Shown here: positions 2,749 through 49,021 of the stretch, one piece after another
Layout of the letters: every line of letters starts with the position of its first letter
Numbering within the stretch: the stretch's first letter is position 1
DNA from: Thalassia testudinum
Taxonomy: Eukaryota; Streptophyta; Magnoliopsida; Alismatales; Hydrocharitaceae
Reading direction: 5' to 3'
DNA length: 64,000 nucleotides
NCBI GenBank assembly: GCA_037157565.1
Contig: JAZHRO010000012.1
Location: 54,861,501 to 54,925,500, forward strand
Notes under the pieces: generated by a model
Told to the model about the DNA's origin: nothing
Database searches by the model: none
What the model saw: only the letters and a program-made list of their open reading frames with translations
Made by a program: the position numbers and the translations under genes

Positions 2749-2764
2749 TACCTGAACCGCGCAA

Positions 2765-2812
2765 TGCGCTTACATGCCCCCAGTAGGATGGATATCCTAA
2801 GAGACAAGCGCC
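2765..2812 (-). other. Conserved stem-loop, A copy
   Basis: The outer arms pair GCGCTT with AAGCGC and the inner arms pair TAGGAT with ATCCTA around a 4 nt ATCC loop. The right-hand internal loop carries GGGGGCATGT. It corresponds to the stem-loops of B, C and D, with different but still pairing bases. Confidence 0.8.
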
Positions 2813-3357: not shown

Positions 3358-3390
3358 CCCCCATGCCTGGTTCAAACAATGTCCTCATTG
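3358..3390 (-). promoter_or_regulatory. Internal hairpin plus G-run (second PPT-like module) of A
   Basis: In element sense the inverted repeat CAATG-AGGA-CATTG (3377-3390) is followed by GGCATGGGGGAGAGG. It resembles the terminal polypurine tract and lies about 1.2 kb upstream of it. Whether it primes DNA synthesis cannot be told from sequence. Confidence 0.65.
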
Positions 3391-22283: not shown

Positions 22284-22321
22284 TACCCCCATGCCTAGCT
22301 TTTGCTAGTCCCTTAGCAAAA
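22284..22321 (-). promoter_or_regulatory. Polypurine tract of B with adjoining hairpin
   Basis: In element sense a hairpin (TTTTGCTA/TAGCAAAA, 22300-22321) precedes GGCATGGGGGTA, which abuts the LTR start. Confidence 0.8.
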
Positions 22322-22728
22322 ACTTATGGTTTCAACCCTTGTTCTAGACCATGAAGTTCTTAATAGCTTCAGATAAGTGATTTTTCATTTAAACCTAGAT
22401 TAGGTTAGAATGCTGACCATAGGCCTAAAAGGTACTCTAGTACCAATCAAGATCCAAATATGTCTACCCTTAGCCTCAGTCTTTAGCAAAGGTTTTTAAG
22501 GCCCACAAGAACTAACCTAAGGTTTATTGGACTTTGTGGTTAAAGCACCCGTGCTTGAAATGATTTTAGCCCTGGCTCAGTTCGCAGTGCGTTTTATAAG
22601 AGAGAGATAGAAAGTTTTTCTGTTTGGAGAGTTTTCTCTCTCTTTTTCTTTTTAGTTCTAGCCTAGGATTGGCTTTTCAACACGGTCTGTATCAGATTCC
22701 TTGCTCCCATCATTAATCCTCAAGGGTT

Positions 22729-22874
22729 CCTGGCAATCGATGCTTCGAGATAGCACCGCCCATGGCAACCCCCGGAACCCTGGCTATTGAGATTTCGAGA
22801 TAATCCCATCCATGGTGTTCCGTGGCCGAATCCAGACCCTGGCAATTGACACTTCGAGATATTGCCATCCATGG
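22729..22874 (-). repeat. Three-unit degenerate repeat, B copy
   Basis: Units at 22729-22765, 22779-22815 and 22838-22874 share the core of the A, C and D triplets. Each ends in CCATGG on the plus strand and contains TTCGAGATA. Confidence 0.8.
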
Positions 22875-22889
22875 AATCTGAACCATCAG

Positions 22890-22941
22890 AGTGCTTACAT
22901 GCCCCCAGTAGGATATGTAAATATCCTAAGAGACAAGCACC
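22890..22941 (-). other. Conserved stem-loop, B copy
   Basis: 52 nt. The outer arms pair GTGCTT with AAGCAC and the inner arms pair TAGGATAT with ATATCCTA around TTAC (element sense). It is the partner of the stem-loops at 2765, 41174 and 48534. Confidence 0.8.
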
Positions 22942-23560: not shown

Positions 23561-23598
23561 ATACCCCCCCATGCCTAAGATTTGCAATGTCCTCATTG
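23561..23598 (-). promoter_or_regulatory. Internal hairpin plus G-run of B
   Basis: In element sense CAATG-AGGA-CATTG (23585-23598) is followed by GGCATGGGGGGGTAT. This is the second polypurine-like module, about 1.3 kb upstream of the LTR-proximal one. Confidence 0.7.
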
Positions 23599-28175: not shown

Positions 28176-30107
28176 GCTAGCCATACTTTCTGATATGGTA
28201 GATGAGTACCTTGAAGACTTCATGGATGACTTCTCAGTATTTAGGGAATCTTTCAATGATTGCCTCCTTCATCTGGTTCAAATCCTCAGGTGATGCATTG
28301 ACGTGAATCTGGTTCTTTCTTGGGAAAAGAGCCATTTCATGGTTCCTGAGGGTATTATCCTGGGACACCTCATCTCTGAAAAAGGCATCCAAGTTGAATG
28401 GGCTAAGGTAAACTTGATTTCCAAACTACCTGTGCCTAGCTCAGTCAAGGACATCAGATCTTTTATGGGGCACGTCGATTTTTATCGTCGATTCATTCCT
28501 AATTTCTCAAAAATCGCATGCCCCCTAACTAATCTTCTATCAAAAGTTGTCCCCTTTGAGATAACCAATGAGTTCACACGCACATTTGAAAGCCTACGTG
28601 ACCGAGTCACTCAAGCACCTATCCTGCAATCCCCTGATTGGTCTCAACCCTTTAAGATCATGTGAGATGCATCTGACTATGCAGTAGCTGCAGTGCTTGG
28701 GCAGAAAATTGACGGGAAACCCGTGGTCATCTACTACGCTAGCAAGACACTCGACAAGGCTCAGCGTAACTATACGATTATTGAAAAAGAGCTGCTAGCT
28801 GTAGTATTTGGCCTAGAAAAATTTCAATCATATCTTTTGGGTTCCCACGTTATCTTCTACTCAGATCATGATGCAGTGAGGCACTTACTCGCGAAGAAGG
28901 ACGAGAAGCCTCAACTAATTCGCTGGATCTTGCTGTTGCAAGAATTCGACCTCGAGATTCGCAACAAAGCAGGAAAACATAATGCTGTAGCTGATCACTT
29001 GTCCCGCCTTCCTTCTTCTATTATCGACCCTTCTAGACTGATCACAGAGCATTTTCCAGATGAGCACCTCCTGACTATTGGTGTGGGACTTCCCTAGTAC
29101 ACAAATATGGTGAATTACTTGGCATCTCATCAAATCCTGTCTAATTGGTCGAAGGCTAAGAAAGACAAATTACTTTCCGATGCCAAGTACAACATCTGGG
29201 AAGACCCATACCTCTTCCACCTTGGTGCTGATCAGATCATCAGATGATGCATCCCAGAAGTGAAAATATAGGACACCTTGTCCTTCTGCCACGAACAGGC
29301 TTGCGACGGACACTTCTTTGGACATAAAATCACAGCTAAAGTCCTCTAGTGTAGCTTTTATTGGCCCACGATCTTCAAAGATGCACAAGATTACTGTAAG
29401 ACATGTACTCATTGCCAGACCTCGGGCAACATGAGCCATTGCGATATGATGCCTCTACAATCGATTCTCGTGTACAAAATCTTCGATATCTGGGGGATTG
29501 ATTTCATGGGTCCCTTCCCCAAATCAGACGACTTCGAATATATACTCCTCGCTGTGACTACGTGTCTAAATAGATCGAAGCCATCCCAACCCAAACTAAT
29601 GATCATAAGGTGGTAATCAAGTTCATTCATCAGCACATCTTCTCTCGGTTCGATGTCCCACGCGCAATTATCTCTGATGGAGGGACCCATTTCATGAATG
29701 CACAGTTCAGATCCCTGATGACAAAGCATGGGGTGTCGCACCAAATATCGACTCCTTATCACCCCCAAACCAATGGATTGGTTGAACTATTAAATAGGGA
29801 GATAAAGAAAATCCTTCAGGCCACTATCGACTGATAGGAAGGATTGGTCAGCTTGCCTTCCGGAAGCTTTGTGGACCTATAGGACCACCCACAAAACCCA
29901 ATTAGGTATGTCTCTATTCAGAATCGTGTAGGGGAAGGTATGTCACCTACCCATCAAAATGAAGCACAAAGACTATTAGGCAGTATGGAAGTGCAACCTA
30001 AATCTTTTAAAGGCTGGAACCCACTGACAATTACAAATGAGCGAGATCAAGGAACTACGCAATAACGCGTACGAGAACTTGCGAATTTACAAAGAACGGG
30101 TTAAAGC
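28176..30107 (+). pseudogene. pol: Element C pol: RT end, RNase H, integrase (decayed)
   Basis: The plus strand reads from the reverse transcriptase catalytic motif (DFMDDFSVF, FMDD at 28219-28230) through RNase H ([30 protein letters not shown]) and the integrase zinc region (CHEQ to CTHCQ) to WGIDFMGPF and ISDGGTHF. Stops and frameshifts break it several times, for example at 28663-28665 and 29095-29097. It is cut on the left by the H2 LTR, inserted in the RT, and on the right by D at 30107. The rest of the pol is at 47316-47640. C is the outermost layer seen. Confidence 0.88.
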
Positions 30108-30850
30108 TAATGGGAACACCATCATGAGCCATAACTAGCTCATCTTTACCTAATTAAGTCAATAAATGCTCCTACATAATCACCAGAGAGTCACAAGTCA
30201 TTGCATATTCATTATGAAAGAAAAATAAGAAGCTAGGGCTAAAACTGTAATTTTACCAGCTCATCATGAACGCAGTACGACCAAGGGTTTTCTTAGGGGT
30301 TGAATGAAGGTCAATTGGTCTTAAAAAGATAACAAGTGGGAGAAGATGGACAGAAAAGGGTTTACAAGTATTCTGAGAATTAAATGACTTTTGAAACCCT
30401 AAAAACAGATCCACTTAATTAACTGAGGTTCCGATCAGGATAAAATTCACTTAAACCCTCTAAAATTTATAGAAAAATATTCTATAGGGTTTAGAACTTT
30501 CAATTTGACCATCAGAACCCATTTTAACCCAAAACAGAATCACAGACAGACATTTGCCCTAATTTAGATTTTTGCATAAATTACCTAGTCAAACAAGGTC
30601 AAAACCAAAATCCAACTTCACCATTGGATTCCTTAGGTCCAAATTAGGTTTGTATAAAAATTTGGACCCAAGATGAATTTGTCTTGACATAGTTTGTAAA
30701 TTTGTCTTGTTTAATTTCATTTCTACCCTTAACTTTCAAAATCCTTTCAACAGGCCCCTAACTTTGTCATCATTTTCATAAAAAGGTCCCTGCCACCATT
30801 AATCCTATTCCTATTTCCTCTGGCGACCTTAAAATAGAAAGAACTTCCTT

Positions 30851-30900
30851 ATTTCTTGACAAATTCCTTTCAAAATTGAAAGGAAAGTTTGTCAAGAAAT
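30851..30900 (+). other. 50 nt U3 hairpin of the D 5' LTR
   Basis: Outer arms ATTTCTTGACAAA and TTTGTCAAGAAAT pair perfectly, with an inner CCTTTCAA/TTGAAAGG stem. The 3' LTR copy (42576-42625) differs by two paired changes and the E copy (43775-43824) by many, yet both keep the stem. Confidence 0.85.
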
Positions 30901-31054
30901 TCCCTTCCTTTTGAAACCAATCCCAAGCCCTAAAACCTACCCAATCTCTCATGGGAATGCATAAGAGATTTGGGTATCAAGGAACTCCCAAGTCCGGCAA
31001 GGCTTTCCAAGCTTGGAAAGCTTGTTTCCCAAGCTTAAAGCGTCTCTAGATCCT

Positions 31055-31064
31055 TATATAAAAG
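31055..31064 (+). promoter_or_regulatory. TATA box of the D 5' LTR
   Basis: TATATAAAAG follows three successive hairpins. The 3' LTR keeps TATATAAG at 42780-42787 and E has TATAAAT at 43980-43986. Confidence 0.7.
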
Positions 31065-31959
31065 AGCCCAGATCCCCCCAAACTTCCTATGCTCGAAATT
31101 GGCCGAGATTCCCCATAATTCCTCTCTCTCTTTCATGGCCGAAGGTTCCTCGACATCTGGGGACCTCTTCTACTTCTCCTCGTCATCCGTCAGCCATACC
31201 AATGGTGGATTCATGTCCCTTACTTCATTTCCGCATCTCGCCATACCAGCAGATGGCCTTTTTCGTTCGTCTTCGCCGTTTCTCCCTCACCGGAACCACC
31301 TTCGTCTCCGGCACTGACAATACCACAACCGATGCCATCTCCGCCTTGCTTCCTCCAACAACCTCCTAGCTAAGTCCCTTACCTTCTATACTTCATTCTC
31401 ACACTCACCCCATTTTAAATCGACCATCGATGACCCTCCTCGATTTCATCTCCTCTATCTCCAGCAACCACTCTGGCGAAGGATTCCGCCCGCTACACGT
31501 GAACATCCCCTTCACCGACCACCCTATAAGCTCCACCTCATCTTCCCGCACAAAACCCACCTCCTGTTTCATCCTCTTGCTCACTCAAACTCACACCTGA
31601 ACAAACACATCATCTCCAACCGTTTCCGTCACCGTCTGGCCACCACAGCTACTCTCGCTCCATGCCACCACCCCCATCACGTTCGCCGTGCTCAGGTGAT
31701 CATTCCTAAACATTTTAACGCGGCCGAAAGGCCCTATTGCTGATTTCAGGTCTTCAGGCGGAGCTTTCCATTAACGCAAGCTTTGAGCTTGCTTGAGAGC
31801 TACTCCAGGACATCTTCGCCCCAGAAGTCATCTCCAGGTGATGCGGAAAGCCTCCAAGACTTCGTTCGGGCAGACAATTGGAGGAGTCTACCACCTCATT
31901 GCACGAATTCGACGAAGGAGCTGCTACTGCAAATGCGTAGAAAAGAAGGCGGAACAATA

Positions 31960-32002
31960 GTCCCACAACATGGAACGCGGGGGTAGGAGAGTCAAATAAA
32001 TT
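31960..32002 (+). promoter_or_regulatory. USE-like plus TATA-like pair in the D 5' LTR
   Basis: GTCCCACAACA (31960-31970), 24 nt, then AATAAATT (31995-32002). The 3' LTR keeps the exact consensus GTCCCACATCG with the same spacing at 46529-46571. Confidence 0.65.
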
Positions 32003-32747
32003 GCAAAAGTGCTCTAGGTTTTCCACCTCAGACACAAGGGTGAGGTCCTCCTTACCCCTCACTCACCTCATCCGTGACCTCTGCCCGTGGACTTGGTACA
32101 GACCCGTTAACTCGCCTAAACCTCACTCCTCGACTGTGCCCCACACACAGCCCTGGACCCGAGTACGCTGAATCCGATAACTCAATTACTCGTGGCTCTA
32201 GGAGAGTGGATCCTAAAGAGAGAAGGAGAGGATAGCTGCACGAGTTGGGGAGGGTTTTGCTCCAATGAGACTCTAACACTTAACTGGATTTAGAAGAAGA
32301 AAAGGAGCAGCAGAGAAAGAAAGAAGAGGAAGCAGAAGAAAGGAAGGAACAGAGAATGAAGAAGAAATCCTAGCACTGTAGAATCAGACGTTTAAGACGT
32401 CTGATCCTACCATCAGACGACACATTTAAGCATTATTTCATATATTGATATTTATGTTCCTTAGCTATTATTGTAAGGAGTATATGGTGGTTTAAACCAC
32501 CATTTTACTCCATTATTTTTGCAAATTTATACTTGATCCTATTGCTACATTATTTTGAAACAATTCTTGATTTCAATTCTATAGCTTTCTTGTCTTATAT
32601 TGCAATTATGAGTTTTGAATTCCATATTGCTCCCTGTGTTCGACCTCGGAACTTATTCAAGTAATAAAAAATCTATTTGTTTTCAAAGCGATTTCTACTA
32701 TATTACAACGCCTTATTTTAAAACTCAATTTCGCTGTGTTAACATTT

Positions 32748-32764
32748 TGGCACCGTTGCCAGGG
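32748..32764 (+). promoter_or_regulatory. Primer binding site of D
   Basis: TGGCACCGTTGCCAGGG lies 3 nt after the LTR. It is the complement of the tRNA-Asp 3' end with two G-to-A changes, both at CpG sites. Confidence 0.88.
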
Positions 32765-33717
32765 AGCAATGAGCAATTTAGAACTCTCGATTGCAATTCC
32801 TAATTCATATTCTAACTTGCTATATCTTTTTTGCTATGGTTGTTTCAAGGGAGAAGATTCATTGAAGAAAGTTCAGCCACATATCAAATACGCCAGGGGC
32901 AAGTAAGCTCTATCTCTTCTCGCTTAAGCCCCTATTTCTAAAAAGGTTAAAAGGAAAAAAAATCAATTAGGGCTACTTGCATTTTATTCTTAGATTAATC
33001 ATCAAGTTGCCTGATTTGATACATTTTATTTAGAAAACAACAAACCCTTATTTGTGCACCCACTTAAAGTTTAAGGTATCTAGGGTTACCACATCCCTGT
33101 TTGAGCCCTAGGTATCACATTTGGACAAATTAAATTGGACAAATCAAAGCCAATTAAGGATTTTAGTTTAGGGTTTTTAGAGATGCACTTGCCTAATCAA
33201 GAAATCATTTTCCCAAATAACGTGTGCCTAGACCTTGATTGAACTGATCTATTCAAGCAAAACCCTAAAATCAGGCTCTTAAAATCATTTGAACACTAAA
33301 AGAGGGACCTAAATTTTCAAGGACAATACAGGTGAAGTTGACCCACCTTGTTGGGTCAACCAATCTTCAAATTAGGTCACTCTTGCACTCAACACATCTT
33401 AAACTTCAAGTGAAATTCTAAGCACCCTTGCTCTTAATTAAAACTTGTAGACTTAAGAGGTCAAGTCCCTATTCTAGTCTACCTGGAACATCAATGACAA
33501 GAGAGGTCGGGTGGGGGAAACCCTATAACCTATGGGGGCACTCTACCGTGTAGGGGTCTTTGCAGGACTCTCCCTCTCTGGCTGCCCAGGTAATTCTCAC
33601 GTGGACGGCTTTCTGACTAAGGGGTACCATCCGCCCCGAACCTCTATAGTCATCCAAAATTTTTGGGTGTCTTGGTTGGGTCCATCACATTCTACCTCTC
33701 ATCTACTCCGTCGATGC
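32765..33717 (+). other. D 5' leader
   Basis: Untranslated leader between the primer site and gag. No gene is supported. The frame opening at 33532 merely runs into gag. Confidence 0.65.
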
Positions 33718-34408
33718 ATGTTCGGGAGGAGGTTGCTAAGACCATCCTTGAGGCCTCCTTTAGTCACTCATTCACCTCGAGGCCAAGCCTCGACCTCCTT
33801 GTCTGTGCAACAACCCAATCTTATTGATATCTCTTCCGATTCATCTGAACCTGATTCTCCTTCATCCATCATCATGGCACAACCCGCAGAAGAAAATAAT
33901 CTCAAAAATCAACTCAAGCACCTCAATGATCTATTCCAAGCCTTTGTGAGCCCACCGCAACGTCCAATGATGCGAGATCACTACAATCTCGCTGCGGTAG
34001 CAATCGAACCCCAAGTACAAATCCCCACTGGAGGTCCTGACACTGAACTCAAGTACAACATCATTCATGCCATCCCCAAATTCCATGTGCATAATTCTGA
34101 AGATCATTTTTAGTATATCAAACAACTCAAACATCTGGCCCAGACCTTCGGGTCAAAAGCTTAAAATTGGGATATTTTACTCATGAAAATGTTCTCCTTC
34201 TCTCTTATGGATAAAGCTACTCATTGGTACCAAACCCAAATGTGTCCGATCAACACCTAGGTGGAACTTCAATCCTAGTTTCTAAGAAAGTTCTTCCCTG
34301 TTGATCGGACAAATGCTTTACGGCACCAAATCACACATTTCACACAACAAGCAAGAGAACCACTTCACAAAGCAAGGGATCGTTTCCTGGATCTCATACA
34401 AAAGTGCC
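33718..34408 (+). pseudogene. gag: D gag, N-terminal part
   Basis: The start is the ATG at 33718, whose MFGRRLLRPSL matches the gag starts of H2 and A. It continues to NIIHAIPKFHVHNSEDHF and a stop at 34111-34113, then further decayed capsid sequence (FSLMDKATHWYQ, FPVDRTNALRHQ) until F interrupts it at 34408. It resumes at 38447. Confidence 0.85.
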
Positions 34409-37400
34409 TGATGAGAGGCTCATCATGATCTATAATTACCCCTAATTAACTAGTCTTCCTAGTTAATTAGATAAGGATATGTGAATATATGGGTTAATTA
34501 TAAAATAAGGAATATATTGTAAAGGACCTTAAAATAAGTTTAAAATGCTATTTTATCATTCAAATAATATTATTAATAATTTGATTAATAATTGGACTCG
34601 ATATCTTAACAATTATTCCTCTAATTAATAAGTTAATTAATTTAAGTATAATGTATACATAAGTATGTAATAACTTAAGTAACTTTACCTAATTTAATAA
34701 ATTAACCTAAAAAGGTCAAAAATGTAAATTCAAGGTGTAAACATAATAATTACCTTATTTATAATCATATATAAAAAGTTGAAAAAGATCTAAATTAAAA
34801 TAAGTCTCTAAAACTTGAGTTTACATTTAGATCCTTAAAACTCATTTCAATCGGGTACTTAATTCTCATATAGGTCCTTAAGTTTCATTGAACAAAGGTC
34901 CCTGTCTTCTTCTTCTCCTTCTTCCTTCAGTCGATTGAACGACTGACGACTGAGGGTGATTCCACCGCTTAATCACTGCTCTACCAACATAATTCTTCCT
35001 TCTCCAAGCTCTTGGAGCTTGCGCTCACCATCCCATCTTCATCCATCGATCTGGATGATTCTAATATCCTAATTTTAGGTAGGAGTTAACCTCACCGTCG
35101 TCGGAGACAACGTCCGTGGTTAACCTCCTCTAGCTCCTCTCACGTCCAGACTCCGCCGCCCTTTTCATCGCCGTCAACTATAAATAGCCCCTCACTCCCT
35201 CGATTTCTGGCAAGTTGGGTCCCTTCCCTCTTCTATCACTGAGCCGATCCAATAGGCTATTCCTCTACAACTCCAGCGATCTTCCACATCAATCTCCAAC
35301 TTCCTCCGTCCATCTTGTTTAGCTTAGGGACTTCACTGAGGTCTGCCGCATCCTTGGACATAGGCATCGATCGAGGAGTGCCTTTGCTCCAACCATTTTC
35401 ACCAACCAGAGATCTTCCTCAATACCCTCTGGTTTCGTCATCCGTCATGAGCCTTCGACGGAGTTCCCTTTACCCCTTCGTCTAGGTAACAATAGATAGT
35501 AGATTAGGAGTAGGAGTAGGATAGTCTAGATAGTTAGTTAGATTAGCGTAATTTCAGAATTTTCAAGTTCATCTTCTTTGACTCCGGCGAGCTCCTTGAG
35601 CTCACCAGAGCCCTAATTTCTTCCTTTTAAGTCGCTATCCACCTTCTTACATCTTTCACAATCACTTCTATCACCATTAATCACTAATTCTATCACTTAA
35701 TCGCCTAAATCACTTCCACCTCCACCAACTACTTCTACTGTCTATGGTAGCAGTAGTTGATTTATGATCCACCTGCATTGGGTCCACCATCATCTTTTCA
35801 TCACTAAAGACCCTAATCCTCACTATAATTCAAGTAATTACCACCTATAATGTAAACAGCCAATTTTTTATTAAGCTCCTGAGCTCGCTGTCAATGGCGG
35901 CTCAGGAGTAGTTTAAATCATTAATTATATATATATTCATCATCGCAATTATCTGTTGACTTGTTTCCTCCACTCAATTGAGTGGGAAAATAAATCCTGA
36001 GCTTAATCCAACTCATATTCTATATAAAGCGAATTTACTGTTAAATCTTTCATCTAATGATCTAATGAGGAATTTAATGTGATCCTGAGGTTCCTTGTGA
36101 CCTCAGGAACTTTTTCAAATCGAAAATGGCGTGATTTACCATTCTGAACACACTTTTCACTTTCACTGGACTCACCGGTGCTCTGACGAGCTTCGGTGAG
36201 TCATTTTCTGATCTTCGGCCTATAGAATTTAATGAAAAGCTCCATATTGATGTGATATTGATTATAAAGTAGTTTGAAGTCATTTGTTTGGGATTTTAAT
36301 CCCTGGAGCTCAGAGTGAGATGTCTTCTTCTCCAACTCCGATGGAGTTGGAGAAGCCTGGACAGATGTCTAAAAGAAGCATTTGAAGAGTCTATAAGCTT
36401 CAGTGCAGTGCACTGAAGCTATTCCTAATCTCAAATCTTTATAGAAACCTTCCAATCATTCTGACGAACAAAGTTCTTTTAGAGTTCAGGCGATGAGCCT
36501 GGAACCCTAATTTCTAGGGTTTACATACCTGATTAAGGGATTGGGAAGATTTCTGAGGTTGAGAAGATTCTATTTTAGGTGTTAATTTCGGGAGAAGAAG
36601 CTTAAATTAGAAAGTCAAAATTTCAAGCTTCACAGCCAAACTGAGTTTGAGATCTTGATCTGAGAAATTGAGGAGTTTGAACTGTCTTTGAGATTCTGTT
36701 GGATGAATTTAGAGTGAATTAATTGAGCTCAGACTTGTAAATCTGTTGTAATTCACACCCTGCCAGTTTGGGTTATTTTTTAACCCAAACTGATGGTAGT
36801 GCCATTTGGATGAGATTTGATCTCAAATCTTGCCCAGATGAATTTGTAACAACCCTTAGAATTTGTTGAAATCGATCAGAAATGATCTTAGCTGTCTGTT
36901 GCACATTTGTGATGTTTAAATCTGATCTCTAAAGCTTTCAGAGAAGCTTGGAGCTTCTTTGCAGCTTCCGAAGCTTAAAGAGCTTCAGAACCTACTCAAA
37001 TAGATGCGGAAAGACCTGTAGAGTCTATTCAGACCCTTAGTTAAGTTAGAAAAGCCAATTTTTAAACACTGAGCATTATTTCATTTCTAGGCAGTAAATA
37101 CCCCATAGGAACCCCCTAGATTTACTCTTCAAATCGAAGATGAAAACATCCTCTTAACCTAAAATTGACCCTGCAATCTTGTAGAGCAACTCAAGAGCTC
37201 TCCATCAAGCATTGAATCGCTTGATTTGGAGCAATGAGTAGGGAGAAATCGTAAGTTGAAGTTGGGTCTAGAAGGGGGAAACATAGTCCCACATCAGAAA
37301 TTCTTGAACGCGTGCATAGGTATAAAATGGTTTTGTGTTTAAGGCTTACCAGTCGTCAAGCGCTCGGCGCAAATCTGAACCTCTGACCATTCTGAGCGTA

Positions 37401-38441
37401 GCGTGTGTGTGTGTGGGTGTGTGTTCCTACAGGTGTGCGCCCGAGTGGGCGTGTGTGCGATGTGGCCCTAGGAGGGCGAGGCCTAGGAGGCGGCTAGGCC
37501 AGTTCAACTTGAGAAAGAAATAAACCAAAAATAAATCGATAACTCGAATCAGGCGATGACCGAGTAGGGTCTGGTCCCACCCTGATCTTAGGGTGTTGTG
37601 TATCCTCGAAAGGACCTCGCCGCAAACCTTAAACTAATTTTTGGTTAAAGGAAAAACTCGGTTCAGCTGAAGGAAGAAGAAAGCTAAGTGCTGGAGAAGG
37701 CTAAGTGTTGAAGCAGAGGAAGCTAAGGGTAAAGGAGGAGCAATCACAATGAAGGCTAAGGAAAGGAGAAGAATAGGCACTAAGGAACAAAGAAGAAATT
37801 AAGAAGAAAAAGACTAAGGGAAGAGAAGATGAAGGCAGGAGCAGAAGAGAAAGAAGAAAGAAAGAGCTCGAGAGAATAAGAGAAAAATAGAAAGAGAAAG
37901 AGAAAAATAAAGGACAAAGAAATAAAAGGAAAAGAAGATAAAGAGAAGAAGAAAACAGAGAGAGGCTGAAGAATAAAAGGAAAAGAAATTTATTTTGTTG
38001 TTATATTTTTAATTTCTTTTTCTTTCAATTGATTGAAATAAGGTATGTTGTAATTAGATAAACTCTTATTTGCCTTAAATTTTCTAAAATAAATAGAGAA
38101 GTTACATGTTTGTAAATGTTGAAAATGAGATTTCATATGGGATTTTGCATATTTCTTCAATTTAAATCACTTTTTGGCAAAATTCATATTATTACAATTA
38201 ACTTAATTATGCCTCCTATACTTATAAGATAAGTAGAGTTAATTAGTGAATTTTAAATGAATTATATCTCCCAACGAATGACCTGAATTCAACCAGTTAA
38301 AAGTAAAAATCTAAAATGTTAGGTTAATTCGACCATATACTACTAAACCGACACAACTTTGAGTTAACCTAAGTGACTTTCTTCTACTCTTAATTAAGTA
38401 TAATTAACTTAATTAATTGAGTTGAGGTGAGGAAACCATCA
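34409..38441 (+). mobile_element. Solo LTR F, about 4 kb
   Basis: It starts TGATGAGAGGCTCATCA and ends ACCATCA, with GTGCC on both sides (34404-34408 and 38442-38446), inside the D gag. No primer site, gag or pol was found, so a solo LTR is the simplest reading, although 4 kb is long. TATA-like boxes lie at 35179-35186 and 37321-37328, the second paired with a USE-like box. A hairpin with 13 nt arms (CTTCTCCAACTCC and its complement) lies at about 36329-36357. Purine-rich GAA sequence fills 37650-38000. A small degenerate-coding insertion cannot be excluded. Confidence 0.8.
37286..37328 (+). promoter_or_regulatory. USE-like plus TATA box in LTR F
   Basis: GTCCCACATCA (37286-37296), 24 nt, then TATAAAAT (37321-37328). 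This is the best TATA match among the five copies. Confidence 0.7.
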
Positions 38442-38446
38442 GTGCC

Positions 38447-39534
38447 CCCATCACGGAGTTCCTAAATGGGAACAAGTCTAGTCTTTTTACCAGAGACTCT
38501 GTGAGGATATCAAATTATTCGTCAATACGACCTGCGAAGGAAAAATCAGGGGTCAACACGAAGACATCGTGTGGGAGGTTCTCAAGAATATGTGTGAGAA
38601 CTCCATCAATAATGAATCCATGGGCATGTTCGACCGAACGAATGCCCATGTACAGGGCCTATCCTCTTCTGTTGACTTGGAACTGATGGCCAGTCATTTG
38701 GACAAGGTCACCATTATTGAAAAGAAGGTGGATGAGCTAACTCAACATTTGCAGCAAGCCACCTCTGCACAAAACTCATACACGCAACCACCCTCTAGTA
38801 AGGAGGTCGTACACAACATCTATCACCAACCTTCTTAGGGGATGGACCATATCCACCTCTATCTGATTCTAGCTACAAAGGAAACTCTGGATCCACCAAC
38901 TCTAGTTGGGGGAACTCTGAACCCTCATATTCTGATTTTCCCAAGGTCCCTCAGACCTGCGAAGACCTCAACGCCATTCAGAATGATCCATTCTCAAACA
39001 CCTACAACCTTCGATGGCGTAATCATCCCAGCTTCACATGATCAGGCAATAATCAAAATTAAAGACTTCAATACCTACCCCGACCACAAGCACCTCATCC
39101 ATATCAGCCGCCTCAACCTCAGCCTAACTTAACTTATCAATCTAGGCCGACTCAAACAGACCAAATGACTCTTATCCTTCATACTCTGGTTGACATTTAG
39201 AAAGCGAATGCGGCTATGCAAAAAGAGCACAGAGACGAGATCACGGAGGTTCTCAATCAACTTGCCTAGATGGAAAATCCTCGCCAACCTGGTGCACTTC
39301 CTTCACAACCTCTGCCTAATCAGAATAACATGCCGAACCAGAGGCACATTATGAACCCAAATCCGGGCCAAGCTCACTTTGTTTAGCAGGCCCCTTCTAC
39401 TCCATCACCTGATGGGATGGAGGCTTCGACATCATATATGGGTTACCAGTAGCAAACACTTCTTCTACCCACTCCAAACCAAAACCATGCAGGATTAAAT
39501 TCTGGTACTACCTACACTGGCAAAACAACACAAG
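38447..39534 (+). pseudogene. gag: D gag, C-terminal part
   Basis: Directly after F and the second GTGCC the gag resumes with CPHHGVPKWEQV, then DIVWEVLKNMCEN and the coiled, Q-rich MASHLDKVTIIEKKVDELTQHL. Later comes NDPFSNTYNLRWRNHPSF, the gag motif also present in H1 and A, in another frame. Several stops and at least one frameshift are present. I see no zinc knuckle. The gag ends abruptly at about 39534, where integrase sequence begins. Confidence 0.85.
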
Positions 39535-40186
39535 ACCATCCTTATCACCCCCAAACCAACGGTCTAGCTGAGCTATCAAATCGGAAGATCAAGAAAATCC
39601 TCCAGGTCATGATTCGCCCTGACAAGAAAGACTGGTCGTCCCAATTTCCGGAAGCTTTGTGGGCTTATAGGACTTCCCACAAAACCCAATTAGGCATGTT
39701 TCCCTTCAGATTGGTGCATGGGAAGGCATGTCACCTCTCCGTCGAATTAGAGCACAAAGCCTATTGGGCAGTACGGAACTGCAATCTCGATCTTTTTAAG
39801 GCAGGAACCCACAGAAAGCTTCAAATGAGCGAGATTAATGAATTACGCCACGACACGTATGAGAACTCTCGAATTTACAAAGAGCGGGTTAAGGCCTTTC
39901 ACGACAAGCACATATCTAGAAAGATCTTTTTCCCTAGTGAAAAAGTCCTCTTCGATGCCAAACTCAAATTGTTCCCAGGAAAACTTAGATCAAAATGGAT
40001 TGGACCATACCTTGTCTGACGAATCTTTAGAAATTGAGCTGTCGAAATCAATCAACTCAGCCACAATTAAGAACCTTTTGTCGTGAACGATCAGAGACTC
40101 AAACCTTTCATTGAACTCATCGATACAAATTTTGCTAAGATATCTTTTACCCTCCATTCTCCCTGAACTCACTGCGCCCAGCTGAT
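39535..40186 (+). pseudogene. pol: D integrase C-terminal remnant fused after gag
   Basis: PYHPQTNGLAELSNRKIKKIL, the region of the third catalytic residue of integrase, follows gag without protease, RT, RNase H or the first part of integrase. The frame 39609-40019 continues with ALWAYRTSHKTQLG and ends at PYLV. Downstream remnants run to about 40186, with GCGCTTAACGGGAGGCAACC following. About 3.5-4 kb of pol is missing compared with A. Confidence 0.88.
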
Positions 40187-40430
40187 GGCATAAAACTTAG
40201 CGCTTAACGGGAGGCAACCTGTCATTTTTGAAAAAACCCAACACCCTTCCTGACACATCCTATGCTAAACTCATATTTCACTTTAGGGTTCATCCACTAG
40301 AACAACCGACTCCACCTCTGGTACCCGTACCTGAGCTTGAAATCGTCCGTAACAGTCATTCCGACCCATTCACCCACCCATCACCTATTCTAATGTATGA
40401 TCTAAGATGAACTCAAACCCACCTAATTTA

Positions 40431-40469
40431 TAATGAGGACATTACAAATCGTAGGCTTGTGGGGGTATT
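40431..40469 (+). promoter_or_regulatory. Internal hairpin plus G-run of D
   Basis: TAATG-AGGA-CATTA, then GGCTTGTGGGGGTATT. Both arm ends differ from the CAATG/CATTG of A and B but still pair. Confidence 0.7.
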
Positions 40470-41173
40470 AAAGTGCAAAACGCCGTGAAAATCACTTCAT
40501 AAGAAACGGTTTCATCCAAAAAATCACATATTCCAAAAATACCAAAAAATAGTAATAATAATAAAATTAAAAAATGCTTAAAAAAGAACGAAAATATGAG
40601 AGGAAAGGAAATTTTGATAACATATCAGATTTTGAGGAGAAAAAGGGGAAGAGATAAAAATGCCAAAAATGAGCACAATTTGAAAAGAAAAGAAAAAGAG
40701 GTAGTCATTAGTAAAAGATTAAGGAATTGACTTAGTTCTAGACCATATCAAAAGAAAGAAAATGAAAGGCAAAAAGTGATAATAAAACAAAGAAGAGATT
40801 AGTAGGAACATTGATTTTAGGCCTCTTGGGCTGGAATCCTAGGCTTAAAAATTCAACCACCCGTTAAGATCTGAATAGTCCTCAAGTGGTTGGGGAAAAT
40901 GTGAAGGTTAAATATTAGGTCTAAGGCTTAGGAATTATTCAATCTCGTGAATTGACCTCTGGTTTGCCGGACTCGGTAACCTAAGCACCCCAATCCACAC
41001 ATAGTCTGGTTCAGTGCGCCTAAGTATCAAAATCACGTAAATGTGTTTAACTTGTTCTGAAAAGGTCACCTAGATTAGGAGCGGCTGATCAACATAAGTT
41101 GATTTGGATGAGTTCCAGGCACGGAGAGGCAGGAAATTCCCCTCGAAGATGCGCAATAACATATCGTCTCCTC

Positions 41174-41225
41174 GGTGCTTGTCTCCTAGGATATCTACAT
41201 ATCCTACTAGGGGCATGTAAGCACC
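41174..41225 (+). other. Conserved stem-loop, D copy
   Basis: 52 nt. The outer arms pair GGTGCTT with AAGCACC and the inner arms pair TAGGATAT with ATATCCTA around CTAC. The right internal loop carries GGGGCATGT. It lies just before the three-unit repeat. Confidence 0.85.
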
Positions 41226-41241
41226 CTGTGCTGGTTCAAAT

Positions 41242-41381
41242 GCCATGGGCAGCATTATCCCGAAATGTCAATTGTCAGGGTCTGGATTTAGCTACAGAAC
41301 ACCATGGGTGGGATTATCTCGAAAGCCAGGGTTATGGAAGTTGCCATGGGCGGTGCTATCTCGAAGCATCGATTGCTAAGG
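41242..41381 (+). repeat. Three-unit degenerate repeat, D copy
   Basis: Units at 41242-41280, 41302-41331 and 41343-41381. The middle unit lacks about 9 bases after the CTCGAAA core. Confidence 0.8.
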
Positions 41382-41793
41382 ACCCTACAAGGATTGATGA
41401 TGGGTACTAGAAATCTGATACAGACCGTATTGTAAAGCTAATCCGAAGCTAGAAATAAAAAGAAAAGAGAGGGAAAACTCTCCAAGAACAAAGAAAAATT
41501 CCTCTGTCTCTCTCTAACAAAAATGCATTGCAAACTGAACCAAGGCTAAAACATGTTACAAGCATGGTGCTTTAACTGCAAAGTTCAATGAACCATAGGT
41601 TAGTTCCTATGGGCCTTAAAAACCTTCACGACAGACTAAGGCTAGAGATGGTCAAGTCCGGATCTTGGTTGGTACTTGAGTACCTCTAAGTCTACTATCA
41701 GCATCCTAACCTAATCTACAAAAGGAAGCACATAGCAATGTTTCTAAGCATCAAAAGATTTTATGGTCTAGAATCAAAGTTAATACCTTGAAA

Positions 41794-41831
41794 TTTTGCT
41801 AAGGGACTAGCAAAAGCTAGGCATGGGGGTA
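41794..41831 (+). promoter_or_regulatory. Polypurine tract of D with adjoining hairpin
   Basis: Hairpin TTTTGCTA/TAGCAAAA, then GGCATGGGGGTA immediately before the 3' LTR at 41832. Confidence 0.85.
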
Positions 41832-43043
41832 TGATGGGAACACCATCATGAGCCATAATTAGCTCATCCTGACCCAATTAAGTCAATAAATGCTCCTTCA
41901 TAACCACCAGAGAGTCACAAGTCATTACATATTCATTATGAAAGAAAAATAAGAAACTAGAGCTAAAACTATAATTTTACCAGCTCATCATGAATGCAGT
42001 ACAACCAAGGATTTTCACAAGGGTTGAATGAAGTTCAATTAGTCTTAAAAAGATAACAACTGGGATAAGACAGACAGAAAATGGTTTGCAAGTGTTTTGA
42101 GAATTCAATGACTTTTGAAACCCTAAAAATAGATCCGCTTAATTAACTGAGGTTATGATTAAGATAAAATTGACCTAAACCTTCTAAAATTCATATAAAA
42201 ATATTCTATAGGGTTTAGAACTTTCAATTTTACTATCAGAACCCATTTTAACCCAAAACAGAACCACAGACAAACATTTGCCCTAATTTAGATTTTTGCA
42301 TAAATTACCCAGTCAAACATGGTCAAAACGAAAATCCAACTTCACCATTGGATTTCTTAGGTCCAAATTAGGTTTGTATCAAAATTTGGACCCAAGATGA
42401 ATTTGTCTTAACCTAGGTTGCAAATTGGTCCTGTCTAATTTCATTTATGCCATTAACTTTCAAAATCCTTTCAAATAGGCCCCTAAATTTGTCGTTATTT
42501 TCATAAAAAGGTCCCTACCGCCATTAATCCTATTCCTACTTGCTCCAACAACCTTACAATGGAAAGAACTTCCTGATTTCTTGACGAATCCCTTTCAAAA
42601 TTGAAAGGGAAGTTCGTCAAGAAATTCCCTTCCTTTTGAAACCAATCCCAAGTCCTAAAACCTACCCAATTTATCATGCGAATGCATGAGAGATTTGGGT
42701 ATCAAGGAACTCCCAAGTCCAGCGAGGCTTTCCAAGCTTGGAAAGCTTGTTTCCAAAGCTCAAAGTGCCTTTAGATCCTTATATAAGAGAGCCCAGATCC
42801 CCCCGAACTTCCTACGCTCGAAATCGGCTGAGATTCCCCATAATTCCTCTCTCTCTTTCACGGCCGAAGGTTCCTCGACGTCCAGCGACCTCTTCTTCTT
42901 CTCCTCATCATCCTTCCGCCATACCAACGATGCATTCATCTCCCTCACTTCATTTCTACGTCTCGCCGTACCAGCAGACATCCTTTTTCCATTCGTCTTC
43001 ACCATTTCTCCCTCACCGGAACCACTTTCATCTCCGACGCTGG

Positions 43044-45881
43044 TGATGAGAGCCTCATCATGAGCCATAACTAGCTCATTTTGACCTAAGAAAGAGAATA
43101 AAAGCTCCTACATAACTTAGAAGAGGGCTTAATTGAAGGAATAATTGTTTTGAGAAGAAAACATGAAATAAAGGTTAAAACTGTAATTTTATCATTGTAA
43201 CACATAAATAGGATTTCTCAGAGGCAGAACATAGGTCAAATGGTCTGAATAAGATAAAAAGTGGGTTGGTTTAATCAGAAATGGGTTTATGTGCAAACCA
43301 GGAATTAAATGACATCTTGTAACCCTAAAACAGACCTGCTTAATTCAAAAAGGTTATGGTTAGTATAAAAATCAAGTAAATCCTCTAAAATTCATGAAAA
43401 AATATCCCCTAGGGTTTATAACATTCAATTTGGCCTTCGGAACCTAGTTTGACCTAAATTGGGGTCCTAACTCATCAATTGACCTAATTTAGGTTTTTGT
43501 GCAAAATGTCCAGTCAAACATGGTCAAACCAAAAATCCAACTTCACCATTATATTCCTTAGGTCCAAATTAGGTTTGTACCAAAATTTGGACCTAAGGGG
43601 AGGTCATCTTGACCTACGTTGCAAATTAGTACACCTAATTACATTTTGGTCCCTATCTTTTGAAAACCATTGCATAGACCCCCTAACTTACTCTCCACTC
43701 TTACAAGTAGGTCTCTCCTCCATTAATGGGGAGAAATCCTACTCCAGTGAGGAATAGAGGGGGAATACTCCCTGATTCCTCAGAGATCTCCTCCCAGATT
43801 TGGAAGGGAGATTCTCTGAGGAATTCTCTTCCATCTAAGCGTGGTCCTGATCTAAGATTTGCACCCAATCTCTCGTGCGAACGCACGAGAGATTTGGGTA
43901 CCTAATAGACTTCCATCTCTGGTGAGGATTCCCACGCTTGGAAGCTTGTCTTCCAAGCACAAGAGTCCCTACCAATGCCTATAAATTAACCGTCAACTCC
44001 GGCTGTACCTCCTCAGCTCAACTTGGCTGGAATTCCACCTCGATTTCCTCTTCTCCTCTGGCCAAGGGGTCTAGCAAGCTCCGGCGAGCCCCCCTCCTCT
44101 TTCTCGTTGCTCTGCCACAATACCAGCGGTAGAGCTGTCCTCCCCATCCTCCTCCACATCACGCAACACCCACGCGAGCAGCCCTAGCCCCGTCATTGCT
44201 GCCGTCTTTCTCCACTGGATGCCTTCTTCTCCGGCGACAGTAGGTACTGCCAGCCGCCCTCTCGCCCCCTTCGTCCACTCAATTATGTTAGAACTGGTCA
44301 TCTCTATCTCCTCTTTCATTTCCCTCATCCTATTTCACACAACACCCCTCGACCGTCACTGTCCACCGCCATCTTCCTCATCTCCAGCCATCCTCCGGAG
44401 AGACGCCTCCATCACTCCGCAACCCCACATGTCTCGCCACCCACCTCACAACCTCTGCCACACTCCACTGAACATCCTCCACTCATCCATAGACCCTCTT
44501 CACCACCGCAACCGCCCCCCGGCCTAACCCATCAATCCAGCCACAGAGCAAACTAGACACGTACGCCTAGGCCACTCCGTGGCCTGCTACCTACTGCCTC
44601 ACCTTCGCCGTGACACGGCGAAGGTCCTCCTATGGTTTGATAGAGCTACAAGCTCCTTTTTGTGTCATGCAGTGTCCGAGCTCCAGCCGCCATTAATGAC
44701 GGCTCGAGGAGGTTGCAAGCATGCTCCAAGCTGAAGGACTTCAGGATTCTAGGTCCAGCAGGTGCGGGGAGGTCTCGCGAAGTCAGTTGTTCCAGCAAGT
44801 GGCGCTGTGAGGCCTGCAGCTATGGCAATTGGAGAAATGATCTCCTGCAGGCACGCAGCAAAAGCAGTGGAACAATAGTCCTACCTCGGTAAGCTGTGAG
44901 GCGCTTGAGCAGTTTAAATTGAATTTATGCTATCATCTGGTTGCCTCCAATACACTGGGGTGAGGTCCCTCCTCACCTATACACGCACCTCATCTGTGAC
45001 TTCATCCCGCGGACCTGGTGACCCGACCCGACTACCCTCCTGAGCACTCCTCGCCCACCCCACCCACGCCGGTGCGCCTGGACCCGGGCGGGCGACCCGA
45101 CCCGATTATCCGGCTCTAGGAGAGCGTACTGAAGAGTGATATACAGAGAGAGAGAGAGACACAAGTGTGGGTAGAGGGGTAGGTTTTGCTCTCTTTGGTT
45201 TGTGCAGGGAAGCTGGAGAAGCAAAGCTGACACTTAGTCGCAGAGGAAAAAGAGAAGGAAAGGCAAGGTAGAGGGAAGAGGCGAAGCCAAAGAGAAGAGG
45301 AACTAAAGAAGGAAGAAGAAATAAAGAAAGGGAAAGACAAGCAGAAGAAGAAGAAGAAGAGAAGCTGAAGCCAAGGGAAGCAGAACCAAGGAAGGAAGAA
45401 GAAGAAGAAGATCATAGAGAAAAGGAGAAAGAAACTACAGAAGAGAGGCAAGGTAGAAGACAGAAGAAAGAAGAAGGGAAAGAGTAGAGAAAGGAGTTGC
45501 AGAGAAGAAACAAGGAAGAAGAAGCATATGGCCAAAGAAGAAAAGAAGAACAGAGGAAAATCAGAAGTCAGAAGAAGAAGAACAAGAAGCAGACAGGAGA
45601 AAACATCTTTTTAAGACATCTGATCCCATGATCAGACGTCCAATTCCTCTATTTTTACCATAATTAACTTTTAAACTCATGCATATATATATTTTGAATT
45701 AAGTTTTGAGTAATTAAGTGTTTAATTACATTCTTGAGACTAGTAATAAATTCCAATTGCTCCCTGTGTTCGACCTCAGATACTTAGGTTTTCGAGTAAT
45801 AAATTTTTATTTGTTGACAACGCTTGGTCACATATACTACGACGCAACTGACTGTTAAAACATGATCAAGCCGCGTTAACA
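43044..45881 (+). mobile_element. Solo LTR E
   Basis: This 2838 bp unit begins TGATGAGAGCCTCATCA and ends GCGTTAACA, inside the 3' LTR of D. Flanks are GCTGG (43039-43043) and GCTAG (45882-45886), one transition apart. It shares the layout of LTR D (hairpins at 43775-43824 and 43863-43899, TATA at 43980, USE-like box at 44878, GAA-rich tract at 45230-45600, GACGTC hairpin at 45615-45640) but differs at the sequence level. The long minus-strand frame at 45116-45535 is spurious. Confidence 0.85.
44878..44920 (+). promoter_or_regulatory. USE-like plus TATA-like pair in LTR E
   Basis: GTCCTACCTCG, 24 nt, then TTTAAATT. It is diverged from the consensus but keeps the spacing. Confidence 0.55.
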
Positions 45882-46528
45882 GCTAGCAATACCTCAACCG
45901 ATGCCATCTCCACCTTGCTTCGTCCAACAACCTCCTAGCTAAGTCCCTTACCTTCTGTACATCATTCTCACACTCACCCCACTTTAAATCAACCACCGAC
46001 AACCTTCTGCGACTTCATCTCCTCCATCTCTGGCGACCACTCCGGTGAAGAATTCCACCCGCTACATGCGAACATCCCCTTCACCGACCACCCTATAAGC
46101 TCCGCCTCGCCTTCCCGCACAAAACCCAACTCCTATTTCATCCTCTTGCTCACTCAAACTCACACCCGAACAAACCCATCATCTCCGACCGTTTCCATCA
46201 CCATCTGGCCACCACAGCTACTCTCGCTTTATGCCACCACCCCCATCACGTTCGCCATGCTCCGACGATCATTCCTAAACATTTTAACGCAGCCGAAAGA
46301 CCTTATTGTTGATTTTAGGTCTTCAGGTGGAGCTTGCCATTAACGCAAGCTTCGAGCTTGCTTGAGAGCTACTCCAGGACGTCTTCGCCCCAGAAGTCAT
46401 CTCCAGGCGATGCGGAAAGCCTCCATGACTTCGTCTGGGCTGACAATTGGAGGAGTATACCCCCTCATTACACGAATTCGACGAAGGAGCTGTTGCTGCA
46501 GACGCACAAAAAAGAAGGCGGAACAATA

Positions 46529-46571
46529 GTCCCACATCGTGGAACGTGGGGGCAAGAGAGTCGAATAAATT
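46529..46571 (+). promoter_or_regulatory. USE plus TATA-like pair in the D 3' LTR
   Basis: GTCCCACATCG exactly matches the plant U-snRNA USE consensus and is followed after 24 nt by AATAAATT. Confidence 0.7.
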
Positions 46572-47315
46572 GCAAAAGTGCTCTAGGCTTTCCGCCTCAG
46601 ACACAAGGGTGAGGTCCTCCTTACCCCTCACTCGCCTTGTCCGTGACCTCTGCCTGCAGACCTGGAAGAGACCCGTTAACTGGCCTAAACCTCACTCCTT
46701 GGCTATGCCCCACGCACACAGCCCTGGACCTGGGTATGCTGAATCTGATAACCCCATTACCCGTGGCTCTGGGAGAGCAAATCCTAAAGAGAGAAGGAGA
46801 GGATAGCTGCACGGGTTGGGGAGGGTTTTGCTCCAATGAGACTCTAACACTTAGCCGGATTTAGAAGAAGAAAAGGAGTAGCATAGAAAGAAAGAAGAGG
46901 AAGCAGAAGAAAGGAAGGAACATAGAACGAAGAAGAAATCTGAGAACTGTAGAATCAGACGTTTAAGACGTCTGATCCTACCATCAGACGACACATTTGA
47001 GCATTATTTCATATATTAATATTTGAGTTCCTGAGCTATTATTATAAGGAGTATATGGTGGTTTAAACCACCATTTTACTCCATTATTTTTGCAAATTGA
47101 TACTTGATCCTAGTGCTACATTATTTTGAAATAATTCTTGATTTCAATTCTATAGCTTTTTTGTCTTATGTTGTAATTTTGAGTTTTGAATTCCATATTG
47201 TTCCCTATGTTCGACCTTGAATCTTATTCGAGTAATAAAAAATCTATTTATTTTCAAAGCGATTTCGACTATATTACAACGCTTTATTTTAAAACTCGAT
47301 TTCGCCGTGTTAACA

Positions 47316-47640
47316 AAAGCCTTTCATGACAAGCACATATCAAGAAAAACTTTCCATCCTGGTTAGAAGGTCCTACTCTTTGATACCAAACTCAAACTAT
47401 TCCCAGGAAGACTCAAATAAAAATGGATTGGACCATTTCTTGTCCAACGTGTGTTTAGAAATGGAGGCGTCGAAATCAATGAACTCAACCTTGATTCTGA
47501 ACCATTTATTGTGAACAGTCAGAGACTCAAACCGTTCATCGAACTCACTGACACAAACTTGGCTACGTTATCTTTCGATCTCCATTCTCCTTGAGCTCAT
47601 TACGCCCAGCTAATGGTATTAAACTTAGTGCTTAACGGGA
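47316..47640 (+). pseudogene. pol: Element C pol, integrase C-terminal end
   Basis: After the second AAAGC copy the frame broken at 30107 resumes (KAFHDKHISRKTF, KLKLFPG, KWIGPFLV, EPFIVNSQRLKPFIEL). In-frame stops occur near 47370 and 47420. The conserved GCTTAACGGGAGGCAACCCG follows at about 47630-47650. D had therefore inserted in the integrase of a close relative. Confidence 0.88.
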
Positions 47641-47862
47641 GGCAACCCGTCATATTTTGAAAAAAAACCTGAAACCCTTTTGACATATCTCTTTACCGAA
47701 ATCATATTGCACTTTAGGATTCGTCCATTAGAACAACCAATCCCACCTTTGGTATTCATACCAGAGCTTGAAATCGTTCGCAACAGTCATCCCAACCCAT
47801 CCACTCACCCTTTGACCCTATTCTAATGTACAATCTAAGCTGAACTCGAACCCACCTAATTT

Positions 47863-47900
47863 ACAATGAGAACATTGTACATCGTAGGCATGGGGGGTAT
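47863..47900 (+). promoter_or_regulatory. Internal hairpin plus G-run of C
   Basis: ACAATG-AGAA-CATTGT, then GGCATGGGGGGTAT. This is the counterpart of the modules at 3358, 23561 and 40431. Confidence 0.7.
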
Positions 47901-48533: not shown

Positions 48534-48585
48534 GGTACTTATCTCCTAGGATATCTAAATATCCTACCGGGGGCACGTAAGTACC
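48534..48585 (+). other. Conserved stem-loop, C copy
   Basis: 52 nt. The outer arms pair GGTACTT with AAGTACC and the inner arms pair TAGGATAT with ATATCCTA around CTAA. The fourth outer pair is A:T where D has G:C. Confidence 0.85.
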
Positions 48586-48602
48586 TTGTGCTAGTTCAAA
48601 TG

Positions 48603-48748
48603 TCATGAGTGGCATTATCACGAAATGTCGATTGCCAGGGTCTGGATTTAGGTATAAAACGCCATAGGCGTTACTATCTCGAAGAGTCAAAAGCCAGGGT
48701 TCTGGGGTTGCCATGGGCGGTGCTATCTCGAAGCATCAATTGCCGGGG
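48603..48748 (+). repeat. Three-unit degenerate repeat, C copy
   Basis: Units at 48603-48640, 48661-48699 and 48710-48748, with the shared CCATGGGCGGT and CTATCTCGAAG core clearest in the third. Confidence 0.8.
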
Positions 48749-49021
48749 ACCCTGCTAGGATTAATGGTGGGAGTAAGGAATCTGATACAGAACATGTTTA
48801 GGGCCAATCCAAGGTTGGGTTTAAGGAAAAATATAATGAAAAGTAAAAGAGAGAGAAAGCTCTCCAAAAATGAAAATCTTCTTCTATCCCTACTCTCTCT
48901 TACAAAAAATGCACTGGCAAACTGAACCTGGGCTAACCATGTTACAATCACGGATGCTTTAACCATTGGGTCCAACGAACCTTAGGATAGTTCATGCGAC
49001 CCTTAGAAACCTTAGGATAGT

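Follow-up and report, generated by a model that had tools for sequence, protein, structure and literature searches.

Little is known of how plant LTR retrotransposons tag their genomic RNA for inclusion in particles. In retroviruses, the signals for packaging and dimerisation consist of clustered hairpins of the full-length RNA, with repeated loops and with palindromes, and the packaging signals usually lie near the 5′ end. Closer to the elements studied here, PMC2829016 describes an extra polypurine tract in the linker of Athila4 and Calypso, as in our elements, and, in the Ty1/copia Sirevirus group, multiple polypurine tracts together with an inverted repeat close to the 3′ LTR, conserved between divergent elements, an arrangement akin to the one reported below. 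LARD and TRIM elements, which lack gag, pol and env, have well-conserved RNA secondary structures according to PMC7215508, and an env-like frame is not universal in the Athila clade, Diaspora having none (PMC1142308). A stem-loop has likewise been proposed in Athila6 RNA, associated with siRNA854 or the proposed miR854 (PMC3276544).

Here we follow up a preliminary description of four stem-loops in a 64,000-nucleotide stretch (the window) of the 4.26-Gb genome of the plant Thalassia testudinum, one in the 3′ region of each of four retrotransposons, A to D, and find that the hairpin (below, the reported hairpin) forms one arm of a multi-hairpin RNA domain. We take the elements to be of Athila type, a label drawn from that description and from general background, beside a gag–pol similarity that they share with Athila4, Calypso, Cyclops and Diaspora. 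Element A differs from env-bearing Athila elements in having no env-like frame of at least 250 codons between pol and its 3′ LTR.

Results

The domain lies in the 3′ linker of Ty3/gypsy elements, the stretch that separates pol from the 3′ LTR (Table 1). The gag and pol products of these elements carry Pfam RVT_1, RNase H, integrase zinc and gag domains, and the 120 protein matches listed of 3567 show 52–68% identity, apart from one at 100%. Element A is a minus-strand element with LTRs at 596–2201 and 10102–11705 (98.6% identical), pol similarity that extends to about 3432 and, beside the 5′ LTR at 10088–10104 (−), what we take, from its motif, to be its primer binding site. Element B is a truncated copy of family B. 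Element D appears to have inserted inside element C, judging from tblastn of P0003, in which residues up to 1760 end at 30108 and those from 1754 resume at 47301; the 3′ LTR of D is itself split by an insert (window 43043–45886), of which 43044–43970 resembles a related LTR (68.7% identity to D's own LTR, 72–74% to B's). The LTRs of the four elements had been said not to align. For A, the matches listed include none to a B or D LTR and only one to related sequence (27897–28175, 68.7% over 294 columns); the statement is wrong for B and D, where 21719–22281 aligns with the D 5′ LTR at 69.3% over 587 columns. An Rfam match to snoR71 (RF00097) above the cut-off, at 55.9 bits, lies at 8307–8412 (+), antisense within the gag frame of A, and RF00097 is possibly a retroelement-derived or mis-scoped Rfam family.

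Polypurine tracts of the exact sequence GGCATGGGGG flank the hairpin at a distance. In a survey of 38 longer loci (8 D-like and 30 of family A, window copies included), such a tract occurs 523–713 nt before the hairpin in 34 loci and 597–650 nt after it in 34, with tracts on both sides in 32. Two other sites are further small hairpins: GGGAGGCAACCC, with hairpin-forming flanks, past the pol region in B, D and C (23794–23805, 40209–40220 and 47637–47648; one mismatch in D), and CAATGAGRACATTG, which in A, B and C immediately precedes the internal tract.

Table 1. Window positions of the structured domain, its component hairpins and the surrounding element features
Feature	Element	Position	Strand	Remarks
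Reported hairpin	D	41174..41225	+	52 nt
Reported hairpin	C	48534..48585	+	52 nt
Reported hairpin	B	22890..22941	−	52 nt
Reported hairpin	A	2765..2812	−	48 nt
Whole RNA domain (closing stem, reported hairpin, three repeat hairpins)	D	41163..41401	+	predicted from alignment A4 and fold
Closing stem, 5′ arm	D	41163..41173	+	A4 columns 94–104 pair with 329–341
Closing stem, 3′ arm	D	41389..41401	+	A4 alignment
Repeat hairpin 1	D	41242..41283	+	loop ATCCCGA
Repeat hairpin 2	D	41301..41342	+	right arm hit by 8-nt deletion
Repeat hairpin 3	D	41343..41384	+	loop ATCTCGA
Repeat hairpins 1–3	C	48602..48751	+	
Repeat hairpins 1–3	B	22725..22875	−	
Repeat hairpins 1–3	A	2598..2749	−	
Terminal GGCATGGGGG tract	A	2202..2211	−	adjoins 3′ LTR
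Internal GGCATGGGGG tract	A	3358..3367	−	directly after pol
Terminal GGCATGGGGG tract	B	22286..22295	−	
Internal GGCATGGGGG tract	B	23566..23575	−	
Terminal GGCATGGGGG tract	D	41820..41829	+	no exact internal copy in D
Internal GGCATGGGGG tract	C	47887..47896	+	no exact terminal copy in C
gag and pol frames	A	4191..8857	−	gag 7823–8857, pol 4191–7490
pol remnant	C	28177..47591	+	28177–30108, apparently split by D, resumes 47301–47591

The four stem-loops first described are borne out in position and length (52, 52, 48 and 52 nt for D, C, A and B), and the individual pair changes named for them are all present. An nhmmer profile built from the four finds these alone as full-length copies in the window (54–66 bits); a half-match at 32893–32910, the next best on new sequence (E 0.11), was set aside as a chance match rather than a fifth hairpin. 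The inner stem TAGGATAT-N4-ATATCCTA occurs three times in the window, where 0.38 occurrences are expected with up to three mismatches and 2 of 100 shuffles reach three. On the sense strand the hairpin is unusually stable (z −3.4 to −4.6; none of 500 dinucleotide shuffles equals any of the four copies), and the antisense hairpin is weaker in every copy (z −1.5 to −3.5). Across the 67-row alignment introduced below, pairs 9–40 and 11–38 are U·G in 63 and 64 rows, pairs that would read A·C on the complement. The preliminary description had allowed for an RNA or a single-stranded DNA fold; because the U·G pairs are kept, single-stranded DNA is the less likely, and together with the difference in stability between sense and antisense they favour RNA over a DNA cruciform. 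Within the hairpin, a mostly conserved GUAAG is similar to the core of a splice donor.

Paired changes within this hairpin had been taken as a sign of selection on an RNA fold. Selection on the fold is supported, mainly by evidence absent from the preliminary description; the double changes in the hairpin are themselves weak evidence, and avoidance of broken pairs is better supported. Covariation among the four window hairpins is no higher than in shuffled alignments (117 of 500 shuffles reach it). For a larger alignment, 104 hairpins were collected, among them the window copies both as such and as refetched; after exclusion of two of odd length, the 102 aligned gave 67 distinct rows. These were compared with a tree-aware null, home-made and not R-scape, that places the parsimony changes of each column randomly on a FastTree tree and differs slightly between the tests on the 67 rows and repeat units and those on nine sequences. 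Neither the covariation score (reached in 38 of 300 simulations) nor the number of double changes (64 of 300) is significant in the 67 rows, and the paired fraction is reached in 12 of 300; with nine sequences, the number of pairs with double changes is not significant (411 of 1000) and the paired fraction is reached in 1 of 1000. Since the simulations reach the double changes so readily, the evidence first offered for the fold is weak. Pair 3–50 is C:G in seven rows (family A by counts) and U:A in 58, so that the change to C:G is one event, confined to family A. Pair 4–49 is A:U in a single row of the 67, copy C, to which the change is private among the sampled relatives: the 34 C-like relatives lack it, one of them having A4 alone and one T49 alone. 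A4 and T49 do occur together in 39 copies across the genome, including the window's (a count of doubles alone; the backwards control pattern gave 0), and the different loops in these copies indicate that they are not one subfamily. Broken pairs are frequent at 1–52 (18 of 67 rows) and 13–36 (21 of 67), and several older copies, such as L077 and L088, have broken stems.

The hairpin forms part of a domain of about 240 nt, in which a 10-bp closing stem encloses it together with three tandem hairpins. In alignment A4, the closing-stem helix 94–98/337–341 is 100% paired in nine sequences, with double changes in three of its five pairs; the paired fraction of the closing stem in these nine is reached in none of 1000 simulations, and its number of pairs with double changes is not significant (188 of 1000 reach it). 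From seven sequences, RNAalifold predicts a closing stem that encloses the three repeats and the reported hairpin (110 pairs, 19 covarying). From nine sequences (101 pairs, 19 covarying) it retains the closing stem, the reported hairpin and the inner stems of the repeats and rearranges the outer parts of the repeats, for which there are thus two competing folds; the covariation term of the nine-sequence fold is small (−2.76 of −83.97). In the common core of 52 pairs, 95.5% of cells are paired and 13 pairs show double changes, values that none of 500 shuffles reaches, and the number of pair types is not above shuffles (110 of 500 reach it). Against the tree-aware null, none of 1000 simulations reaches the core's paired fraction or its double-changed cells, and 5 of 1000 reach its number of pairs with double changes. 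The predicted fold is well supported by these alignments. Single-sequence stability of the domain is moderate in A, B and C (z −2.3, −3.1 and −3.3 against shuffles), and the D domain is not more stable than its shuffles (z −0.58, with 30 of 100 at least as stable). The identity between A and six other sequences peaks at D 41080–41414, with 0.61–0.81 in domain windows and at most 0.59 outside, a clear but modest contrast. A search of the whole window against Rfam gave no gathering-score match within the domain, and a search of D with E-values up to 10 gave two matches only (E 2.6 and 4.5). In A and D we also looked for stretches of the domain exactly complementary to the 5′ leader; none was longer than 9 nt in D or went beyond an 11-T run in A.

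The strongest covariation of the domain sits in the repeat hairpins, which the preliminary description did not list. Three TATCNCGAA motifs follow each reported hairpin; of the 13 that the window contains, where 1.43 are expected, 12 are accounted for in this way, and ATGGGCGGTGCTATCTCGAA, which spans the third, is identical in all four elements. The motif caps a small hairpin with a 7-base loop and a 7-bp stem, within tandem units of about 50 nt that are clearly paralogous and whose stems vary in sequence and stay paired. We aligned 22 units, 20 of them distinct, from the window copies and from L118, L119, L120 and L127 (alignment A3; L119 gave two), leaving out repeat hairpin 2 of D because of its 8-nt deletion. 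The loop is ATCTCGA in 15 of the 22 and ATCCCGA or ATCACGA in the rest (RNA consensus A-U-C-U/C/A-C-G-A), and a CCATGG palindrome (CCAUGG in RNA) lies beside it in 19. Paired cells make up 93.8% of the alignment, and double changes occur at four pairs, in 24 cells. The paired fraction, the count of double-changed cells and the covariation score are each matched by none of 500 shuffles, and none of 1000 tree-aware simulations reaches any of three measures for the repeats; the numbers of pairs with double changes (288 of 500) and of pair types (475 of 500) are not above shuffles. Pair 12–26 takes the forms C-G, U-A, G-C and U-G with zero broken cells, and RNAalifold, unaided, predicts the same fold. 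For the repeats in the nine sequences, the paired fraction, double-changed cells and pairs with double changes are reached in 0, 0 and 16 of 1000 simulations.

The domain is kept in every or nearly every examined copy of four families. A hairpin-free query for family A gave 40 matches, and all 30 that were fetched, the window copy included, carry the hairpin; they are 98–100% alike. Among C-like copies, again from a hairpin-free query, it is present in 34 of 35 fetched of 39 non-window matches, with broken or shortened stems in L077, L080 and L088, and L106 keeps only its last 7 nt. For family B, a hairpin-free flank query found it in 4 of 4 fetched of 40 matches and an open-frame query in 14 of 16 fetched of 40, the other two having different sequence there; the D-like set (28 of 28 fetched of 40 places, window copy included) came from a query that contained the hairpin. 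Loss of the stem from most recently inserted copies is therefore not what these families show, with the hairpin kept in 30 of 30 copies of A and 14 of 16 of B. Not every relative has it: of 14 loci chosen for their integrase similarity and fetched from 150 matches, four have the domain and ten do not, which indicates that not all Athila-type elements need it. Eight L116-type loci without the domain have both exact tracts (three loci) or one (five), and L124 and L128 have neither domain nor exact tract.

Family B has no gag or pol similarity detectable by tblastn in the internal parts examined (22284–25431; L115). It carries a 403-codon open frame (23829–25040, −) without a Pfam match, part of which has 4101 first-look candidates in the genome, and the 39 non-window matches listed for the frame are all 98% identical to the window copy. 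The 14 of 16 copies that retain the structured RNA, picked by this frame and not by the domain, are mobile copies of a family without gag or pol detected in the parts examined, although a recent deletion family could hold the domain through inheritance alone. L118, whose integrase match sits in a 1906-codon open frame, is 90% identical to B over 1665 columns of linker. Matches of family B also recur at steps of 7.19–7.22 kb (G000 C33, 17309621, 17316813 and 17324004; C41, 64485575 and 64492796), a spacing that suggests head-to-tail LTR–internal–LTR arrays.

Two Athila-like groups of the same genome lack the domain, and one of them has different hairpins in its linker. This second array, in L116-type loci, is built of a hairpin whose tip resembles GGTAACAGC; by a motif search the linker holds two copies in seven of the eight loci and one in L116. 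In L117, hairpin copies with GGTAACAGC-like tips lie at 720–960 (sense), in the same linker of this domain-less Athila-like group. RNAalifold folds 15 such units (11 distinct), with pair 13–35 A-U or G-C according to copy group, and because two copy groups amount to few events, we treat this covariation as a lead. Array loops within the one genome are AUCUCGA three times in the A–D group and a GGUAACAGC tip twice in the second group.

Outside the plant, 14 viral contigs match the left-arm pattern and none has the whole hairpin (best 19.9 bits versus 54–66); the 20-mer ATGGGCGGTGCTATCTCGAA has 0 matches in viral contigs, which also yielded no pol relatives. One pol search of genome contigs gave no relative; a second returned L017 and the pair L015 and L016, which share 99.6% identity, all three with no hairpin and no significant domain match (best E 4.6). 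These three (NZ_JABGCL010000066.1, NZ_QPKJ02000021.1 and DAIEQH010000041.1) have bacterial names, encode a plant-type Athila pol and are probable plant DNA contamination.

Discussion

We tentatively read the domain as a cis signal on full-length element RNA that most likely serves recognition by Gag or dimerisation. A cis role is suggested by the contrast in identity between the domain and its surroundings, by the high copy number of family B without detected gag or pol, and by the likeness of the B and L118 linkers. The near-constant loops, present in repeat, and the CCATGG palindrome of 19 of the 22 units make packaging or dimerisation our first choice of step; export is the second. The domain would be read on the full-length RNA, where three like loops, each beside a CCAUGG palindrome, may offer several equal binding or kissing sites; through these loops Gag, the putative reader, would select genomic RNA and perhaps pair it. 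Against this reading, retroviral packaging signals usually lie near the 5′ end, whereas the domain lies about 600 nt from the 3′ LTR. A broader possibility, which we hold as doubtful but worth stating, is that the linker between the two polypurine tracts carries exchangeable modular RNA arrays, each displaying a family-specific, near-constant loop on varying stems as a 3′ identity tag for Gag or a host factor, and that families without gag and pol parasitise coding relatives.

Several other roles deserve consideration. The domain might act in export or stability, in the manner of a constitutive transport element, if a host RNA-binding protein bound the loops and thereby carried unspliced full-length RNA out of the nucleus or shielded it from decay. 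The 3′ position between pol and LTR suits this role, repeated like loops would fit a multivalent host factor, and GUAAG resembles a splice-donor core (U1 binding being only a thought); the lack of an Rfam family matching the domain counts against it, and we consider it a lesser possibility. It is unlikely that the fold serves plus-strand DNA synthesis by separating, blocking or presenting the two identical polypurine tracts during reverse transcription, even though GGCATGGGGG occurs exactly on both sides in 32 of 38 loci and an extra tract is described for Athila4 and Calypso in PMC2829016. L116-type loci without the domain still have both exact tracts (three of eight) or one (five of eight), and the fold lies some 500–700 nt from either tract. 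Moreover, the RNA template is removed as plus-strand synthesis proceeds.

That the hairpins are diced into small RNAs, as once proposed for the Athila6 stem-loop that yields siRNA854, seems very improbable here. Long hairpins can be diced, and small RNAs of Athila6 are documented in PMC3276544, but the siRNA854 sequence itself has 0 matches in the window with up to three mismatches, and dicing would favour constant stems, whereas here the loops are near-constant and the stems vary. Shared descent alone, from an old tandem duplication of a palindromic unit whose similarity merely reflects common origin, would explain the clear paralogy of the repeats, the many decayed copies and the common pair-breaking changes. 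We disfavour it and give it little weight, since simulations that keep relatedness match neither the covariation of the repeats nor the paired fraction in any of 1000 runs each, and conservation is lower outside the domain. It is scarcely credible that a short conserved open frame, or the relic of an env-like gene, underlies the domain. A frame is indeed open through the domain, for 119 codons in D, 106 in B and 117 in A, but differences fall about equally on the three codon positions between D and A (36/114, 27/112, 36/115), D and B (14/109, 16/111, 18/110) and D and C (22/114, 19/115, 19/116). Indels include lengths of 1, 4, 5 and 8 nt, the 4-nt change in the A hairpin shifts the frame, and a protein search gave one relative, from a 1011-bp contig; from these comparisons we judge that the domain is not coding.

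A compact, covariation-supported domain of about 250 nt, common to coding families and to a family with undetected gag and pol, offers a defined piece for tests of Gag binding, dimerisation and export. It would also let annotators recognise such families by RNA structure once their proteins are gone.

The domain resembles retroviral packaging and dimerisation signals as these are generally described, and differs from them in its 3′ rather than 5′ position and in matching no Rfam family. For Athila-type elements, the titles and abstract openings of open-licence literature, among the matches listed, describe no structured linker RNA domain such as the one found here. The inverted repeat of Sirevirus elements spans the junction of polypurine tract and LTR (PMC2829016), whereas the domain here lies mid-linker and is multi-hairpin, with three repeats of near-constant loop. 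Family B, which shows no gag or pol similarity in the parts examined and whose matches recur at even steps, is comparable to the LARD and TRIM elements of PMC7215508; unlike in those elements as described, the same domain is common to gag–pol-bearing relatives (L118 and family A) and occupies a defined place in the linker.
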